64,000 nt of DNA. Source: a virus. Shown here piece after piece: positions 47,372 through 48,258 of this stretch. Every line of letters starts with the position of its first letter. Position 1 is the first letter of the stretch. The stretch spans positions 1-64,000 of IMG/VR virus record IMGVR_UViG_3300028840_002420. One strand, 5' to 3'. Made by a program: the position numbers and the translations under genes. The notes beneath the pieces were generated by a model. It was not told the DNA's origin. It worked only from the letters and a program-made list of their open reading frames with translations, and searched no databases.

Positions 47372-47445
47372 GCTGCGGTAGGCTAATTGGCAAAGCCAAC
47401 AGGTTTAGGCCCTGTGTACTGAGGGTTCGAGTCCCTCCCGCAGTA
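47372..47445 (+). tRNA. tRNA-Leu (anticodon UAG), short variable loop
   Basis: Full cloverleaf: acceptor stem 7 bp with a G1-U72 wobble, D stem 4 bp (GGCT/AGCC), anticodon stem ACAGG/CCTGT with loop TTTAGGC (anticodon TAG at 47406-47408), variable loop of only 5 bases, T arm GAGGG-TTCGAGT-CCCTC, discriminator A. No encoded CCA. Reads CUA. Bacterial Leu tRNAs normally have a long variable arm, which is absent here. Confidence 0.88.
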
Positions 47446-47447
47446 AA

Positions 47448-47532
47448 GGGAGTGTGCGCGAATGGCTAAGCGTCCCGACTGTAAATCGGTGGACGGCTCA
47501 GATCCGTGGAGGTTCGAATCCTTCCGCTCCCA
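47448..47532 (+). tRNA. tRNA-Tyr (anticodon GUA)
   Basis: 85 bases, two bases after the previous tRNA. Acceptor GGGAGTG/CGCTCCC, anticodon loop CTGTAAA (anticodon GTA at 47481-47483), long variable arm (ACGG/CCGT stem) as expected for bacterial class II Tyr tRNA, T arm GGAGG-TTCGAAT-CCTTC, discriminator A. No encoded CCA. Confidence 0.93.
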
Positions 47533-47534
47533 AA

Positions 47535-47609
47535 GGCTGGGTAGCCCAACTGGAAGATGGCTACGGCTTCAAACGCCGTGAGATGAGGGTTCGAATCCCT
47601 CCCCAGCTA
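47535..47609 (+). tRNA. tRNA-Leu (anticodon CAA), short variable loop
   Basis: 75 bases. Acceptor GGCTGGG/CCCAGCT with a G1-U72 wobble, anticodon stem ACGGC/GCCGT and loop TTCAAAC (anticodon CAA at 47570-47572), variable loop GAGAT, T arm GAGGG-TTCGAAT-CCCTC, discriminator A. D stem only 3 bp. Reads UUG. The T arm is almost the same as in the UAG tRNA, which suggests duplication. Confidence 0.85.
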
Positions 47610-47682
47610 GAGCCCGTAGGCTAACAGGAAACGCCGGCCGGCTTAAACCCGGTGGTTCTGGGTTCGACTCCCAGCGGGCTTA
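47610..47682 (+). tRNA. tRNA-Leu (anticodon UAA), short variable loop
   Basis: 73 bases, starting at the base after the CAA tRNA with no spacer. Acceptor GAGCCCG/CGGGCTT with G1-U72 again, anticodon stem GCCGG/CCGGT and loop CTTAAAC (anticodon TAA at 47644-47646), variable loop of 4 bases, T arm CTGGG-TTCGACT-CCCAG, discriminator A. Reads UUA. Its last three bases are the stop codon of the minus-strand gene. Confidence 0.83.
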
Positions 47683-48258
47683 TCCAGTGAAGGTGGCGAA
47701 GTCCGTATCGACAGTCACGCCAAGGATCGGCCGCTTGCCGTTGTCCTGAGCTTCGTCGACCGTGGTATCGCCGGTGCGGTCCAGCGTGCACTCGCCGATT
47801 TTGATCCATTCGTTGCCGGCGCCGACGGCCGTCTGGATCTCGGTATCGGTCGGGGCGACTTCGCTGCCGGTGAGCGCGGGGGTGCCTTTTACGATGACCT
47901 GGGACACAGTGCCGGCGACGTTTTTCAGCACGATGGCAGCTTTGCAGCTGTTGCCGTCCGCAAGGCCTGTGAGGAATGATCCGCTGTGGATCGCCACATC
48001 GGCTTGAGCTGCGGATTCGAACGCGACCCCATTGACGATGGCGGCGAGCGCTTCGATGTCCACATTCCACGTGGTGTTACCCGTACCGGTGAGCTGGCTG
48101 CTGCCCGTGGTCGGGTCTTTGAGAAGCCCCCCAGCTAGGATCTTGTTGGCCTCGTGGGTTTTGATCTGGTTGAAGTACTTCGCGACGGCGTGAGTCTGGT
48201 GAGCGAGATCGCTCGGGTCCAGATCGACATCGGTCGGGGTTGCGCTTCGTCCGCTCAT
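47680..48258 (-). CDS. Virion-type structural protein on the minus strand
   Basis: 192 residues. A good SD (GGAGG, then six bases, then ATG) lies before the start at 48258. The protein has VAKYFNQIKTHEANKILAGG, AAIVNGVAFESAAQADVAIHSG and GAGNEWIKIGECTLDRTGDTT, the pattern of widely distributed phage structural proteins. It is one of only two convincing minus-strand genes. Its stop codon (47682-47680) overlaps the 3' end of the last tRNA, so the two transcription units converge. Confidence 0.75.
   Translation of the reverse strand: MSGRSATPTDVDLDPSDLAHQTHAVAKYFNQIKTHEANKILAGGLLKDPTTGSSQLTGTGNTTWNVDIEALAAIVNGVAFESAAQADVAIHSGSFLTGLADGNSCKAAIVLKNVAGTVSQVIVKGTPALTGSEVAPTDTEIQTAVGAGNEWIKIGECTLDRTGDTTVDEAQDNGKRPILGVTVDTDFATFTG

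Follow-up and report, generated by a model that had tools for sequence, protein, structure and literature searches.

Class-I-like leucine tRNAs with short variable loops in a contractile-tailed phage and in many unrelated phages

Three tRNA genes with leucine anticodons in a phage genome have variable loops of only 4-5 nt, and they are probably genuine phage-borne, class-I-like leucine tRNAs that are charged by the leucyl-tRNA synthetase (LeuRS) of the host. Short-arm leucine tRNAs of this kind are not peculiar to this phage, but are widespread over many unrelated phages.

The stretch of DNA that was analysed, hereafter the window, has 64,000 nucleotides and is the first 64 kb of the 113,207-bp IMG/VR virus record IMGVR_UViG_3300028840_002420, which may be incomplete. 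Its GC content is ~60%. The phage is contractile-tailed, encoding a tail sheath and an SPO1-like major capsid protein, the latter being SPO1/Herelleviridae-like with an identity of at most 40%. Four tRNA genes form a tight array at 47372-47682, in the order of Table 1, with intergenic gaps of 0-2 nt; Leu(UAA) abuts Leu(CAA) without any spacer, and CCA is not encoded in the array. A sigma-70-type promoter was looked for upstream of the array, with no match. The gene convergent with the array (47680-48258, minus strand) has no PHROGs match. In a near relative (G001), a homologue of this gene lies on the other strand and in another place (L556 7060-7683), indicating that the array and the gene are situated at a rearranged site.

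Table 1. The four tRNA genes of the array and their characteristic positions.
Gene	Coordinates	Strand	Variable loop	Other features
tRNA-Leu(UAG), class-I-like	47372..47445	+	GTACT, 47416-47420	G1-U72, A73, A15:U48, A20a
tRNA-Tyr(GUA)	47448..47532	+	class II arm of the normal bacterial type	internal control within the array
tRNA-Leu(CAA), class-I-like	47535..47609	+	GAGAT, 47580-47584	G1-U72, A73, A15:U48, A20a, open 13-22
tRNA-Leu(UAA), class-I-like	47610..47682	+	GGTT, 47654-47657	G1-U72, A73, A15:U48, A20a, open 13-22

Both ARAGORN and the Rfam model RF00005 detect the three leucine tRNAs and the tyrosine tRNA. The trio carries its Leu anticodons on intact cloverleaf stems and scores 62.5, 56.1 and 53.3 bits with RF00005 (gathering score 29), and variable loops of 5, 5 and 4 nt place it outside class II, which has a long arm of about 11 nt or more. 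A preliminary description of this DNA had reported well-folded Leu-anticodon tRNAs with variable loops of 4-5 nt, G1-U72 and A73 in all three, and a class II arm in the neighbouring Tyr(GUA) that speaks against sequence loss across the cluster; these observations are confirmed. G001 has no tRNAs at all, so that the array is dispensable, which would suit tRNA genes that have decayed, shedding the arm as they became degenerate or non-functional. However, decay is most improbable in view of the intact stems, the Rfam scores far over the cut-off, and the recurrence of the form, with the same determinants, in many unrelated phages.

All of the 75 distinct Leu(UAG) tRNAs sampled from cellular genomes belong to class II, and none has a short arm, so that the short loop in the window is not a matter of chance; the variable arm in the cellular Leu sample is 11-15 nt long. 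Viral tRNAs were drawn from IMG/VR only by anticodon and T-loop sequence. Short-arm forms account for 30 of the 139 leucine tRNAs pooled from these samples (Leu(UAG), 5/52; Leu(CAA), 7/9; Leu(UAA), 18/78), including one in L676 in which several of the Leu marks are missing and which is possibly miscalled. All 53 viral Ser(UGA) tRNAs sampled from IMG/VR are class II (short-arm, 0/53), and so are all Ser (11) and Tyr (5) tRNAs in one examined phage set. Further short-arm leucine tRNAs were found by an IMG/VR scan directed at short arms, their counts being at least those of the matches listed. Among named phage isolates, three occur in each of Escherichia coli K-12 phage mistaenkt, Shigella phage Sf17, Mycobacterium phage ArcherS7 and Gordonia phage Sixama, and two in each of Proteus phage 2 and Myxococcus phage Mx1. 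The form is also present in Mycobacterium phages Winky and prophiT49-2, Streptomyces phages Manuel, HaugeAnator and pSt2308, Enterococcus phage EFDG1, Cronobacter phage CR8, Pseudomonas phage ZC03, Prochlorococcus phage P-RSM6 and Cellulophaga phage phi17:2. In pSt2308 (L471 2494-2688), a short-arm Leu(CAA) lies beside a class II Leu(UAG), both with G1-U72, and this pair is useful for comparison inside one phage. Two candidate examples were rejected. T5 Leu(UAG) is class II. The tRNA-Leu-CAA of mycobacteriophage Gaia, which has been reported to replace a host tRNA gene disrupted by integration and was considered as in vivo proof of short-arm function, is class II as well (L480 9121-9204).

The arrays of Mooglevirus Sf17, Bixzunavirus ArcherS7 and Manuelvirus resemble that of the window in being clusters with short-arm leucine tRNAs, although arrays of this type have up to about 26 tRNAs, unlike the four-gene array of the window. 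Their short-arm members are annotated simply as tRNA-Leu, and no comment on the missing arm was found there. No earlier account of short-arm phage leucine tRNAs was found in the open-access literature, and a 2023 review gives the contrary as the rule.

LeuRS of E. coli requires A73, the A15-U48 Levitt pair, G18G19, A20a and contacts between the D-loop and the T-loop (PMC9976931). Variants without the variable and anticodon arms remain active, and it is archaeal LeuRS alone that reads the arm specifically (PMC9976931). All five determinants tested (A14, A15:U48, G18G19, A20a and A73) are present in each of the three window tRNAs, the list being that of the E. coli enzyme. The suggestion of the preliminary description that the trio may be charged unusually is thus disfavoured, every tested E. 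coli Leu determinant outside the variable arm being there. With a search pattern that left all five positions unconstrained, the full set was found in 88% of 162 short-arm and 92% of 194 class II leucine tRNAs, against 12% of the other class I tRNAs that have A73 (n = 754) and 6% of non-Leu tRNAs as a whole (n = 1632). The open 13-22 pair, a trait of class II leucine tRNAs, is similarly shared (90% of short-arm and 95% of class II Leu, but 198/1372, or 14%, of other class I tRNAs).

The window trio therefore has the anticodons, A14, A15:U48, G18G19, A20a and A73 in common with bacterial class II tRNALeu, and in two of its three members also the open 13-22 pair, which is paired in Leu(UAG). It differs in the variable loop (4-5 versus 11-15 nt), in having G1-U72 instead of G1-C72, and in a diverged body. 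Animal mitochondrial tRNALeu likewise lacks the long variable arm, and A73 and A14 matter for its charging (PMC9976931). Unlike the phage trio, it is organellar and charged by mitochondrial LeuRS, and no descent is implied.

The meaning of the codons read by the trio was examined by comparing the window with G001, the capsid protein of which is 83% identical. Leucine in G001 is aligned with TTA in 17/22 cases, TTG in 153/248 and CTA in 25/46, which is about the rate of the comparison codon CTG (408/675). UUA, UUG and CUA are leucine codons in this phage, and its genetic code, as judged from these alignments, is standard. Codon reassignment, or a suppressor role for the tRNAs, is rejected on this ground, and phage-specific decoding, as had been envisaged earlier, is likewise disfavoured, since the three codons match leucine at about the same frequency as CUG does. 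TTG is common in the window (14 per 1000 codons), and CTA (3.1) and TTA (1.3) are rare; supplementation of codons by the trio is possible.

The bodies of the tRNAs were compared with a position model from which the anticodon loop and the variable loop were left out, and which was trained without the window. All three window tRNAs score best in the short-arm Leu group, with a margin of 5 to 14 natural-log units, and in leave-one-out analysis 188 of 204 short-arm leucine tRNAs are assigned to either of the two Leu groups. When the model was trained on class II Leu alone, the trio was not ranked as Leu and only 54 of 162 short-arm forms were called Leu, implying that the tRNA bodies have diverged. 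We record this as evidence against a simple descent from class II tRNALeu. Either arm loss or convergence of other class I tRNAs could have produced the short-arm form; arm loss is the origin that we infer. With published tRNAscan-SE isotype models, the three leucine tRNAs of Shigella phage Sf14 score best as Leu (PMC12482277), and the related Sf17 has the same anticodon loops, with variable loops of 5-7 nt.

Trained on class II Leu, the model gives the trio higher ranks as Glu, Arg and Lys than as Leu, as would be expected of class I bodies that bear Leu anticodons, are charged by another synthetase and cause mistranslation of leucine codons. Such mischarging is very unlikely, however, because the Leu determinants are complete in all three, the codons align with leucine, and the trio groups with other short-arm leucine tRNAs once those form a class of their own.

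The G1-U72 pair was described as an oddity of the trio. It is indeed common to all three, but it is neither trio- nor Leu-specific, being frequent in phage tRNAs of the isotypes served by class I synthetases. It occurs in 93/162 short-arm and 35/120 class II leucine tRNAs of viruses and in 3/75 cellular ones, and the difference is weaker in the samples not directed at short arms (15/30 short-arm versus 32/109 class II Leu, p = 0.05). Among viral tRNAs it is found in 282/1003 tRNAs (28%) with isotypes of class I synthetases, in 9/756 (1%) with those of class II synthetases, in 19/77 for Lys, and in 59% of Glu tRNAs; the sequences in these counts are interrelated, so that their independence is overstated, and the cellular sample is small for non-Leu isotypes. 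A plain reading of the counts is that many class II synthetases use the first pair as an identity element, whereas the others let it drift. Only a weak trend links G1-U72 to the absence of an encoded CCA.

The far greater frequency of G1-U72 in viral than in cellular leucine tRNAs also bears on whether the short arm and this pair were selected to escape host effectors that read tRNA, such as anticodon nucleases and toxins that read the acceptor stem (toxSAS, for example), so that leucine decoding would persist once host tRNALeu is destroyed. Phage tRNAs have been proposed to dodge tRNA-targeting defences by changes in the anticodon loop (PMC10264068). The toxSAS FaRel2 needs G1-C72, and tRNALeu of its native host has its acceptor determinants (PMC11559606), which U72 would break. 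On the other hand, the targets of FaRel2 are Gly and Thr tRNAs, in which phages retain G1-C72; the variable arm of tRNALeu is not known to be recognised by any such effector; Ser and Tyr tRNAs kept theirs; and the anticodon loop of Leu(UAG) in the trio, TTTAGGC, is also found, rarely, in cellular leucine tRNAs. Selection for escape, though compatible with charging by the host LeuRS, is thus unlikely as the explanation. A more elaborate proposal is that the missing long arm and the weakened first pair make up a distinct, widely shared phage tRNALeu architecture, accepted by the host LeuRS but not by host factors that read the arm or G1-C72, which would maintain the supply of leucine in the face of defences directed at tRNA; we consider it rather doubtful.

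In the explanation preferred here, charging by the host LeuRS, each gene would specify a tRNALeu core with a 4-5-nt loop in place of the long variable arm. The short array would be transcribed and processed, and CCA would be added by host enzymes, as proposed because none is encoded and a search of the 113-kb record found no CCA-adding enzyme domain. The tRNA-synt_1 domain (PF00133, Leu/Ile/Val/Met-type synthetases) was not found in the 113-kb record either. The host LeuRS would charge the trio via A73, A15:U48 and D-loop elements, and the trio would read CUA, UUG and UUA as leucine; we infer both its expression and its charging by this enzyme. Bacterial LeuRS, in contrast to SerRS and TyrRS, would not depend on the arm, which could therefore be lost; the retention of the arm in viral Ser and in bacterial-type Tyr tRNAs would be accounted for in this way. 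If arm loss is allowed by the bacterial enzyme, viruses of archaea should keep the arm. The archaeal halovirus HGTV-1, a single virus, is in line with this: all four of its leucine tRNAs are class II, and the Tyr tRNA belongs to class I, like that of archaea.

These results suggest that tRNA annotation based on class II rules goes wrong in phages, and compact leucine tRNAs become available for tRNA engineering. The in vitro claim of an arm-independent LeuRS becomes testable in real infections. Phages of bacteria often break the long-arm rule, in about a fifth of the leucine tRNAs of the IMG/VR sample, and they may be regarded as a natural experiment in which the features that LeuRS needs have been kept and those that it ignores have been lost, while Ser and Tyr tRNAs retain their arms.
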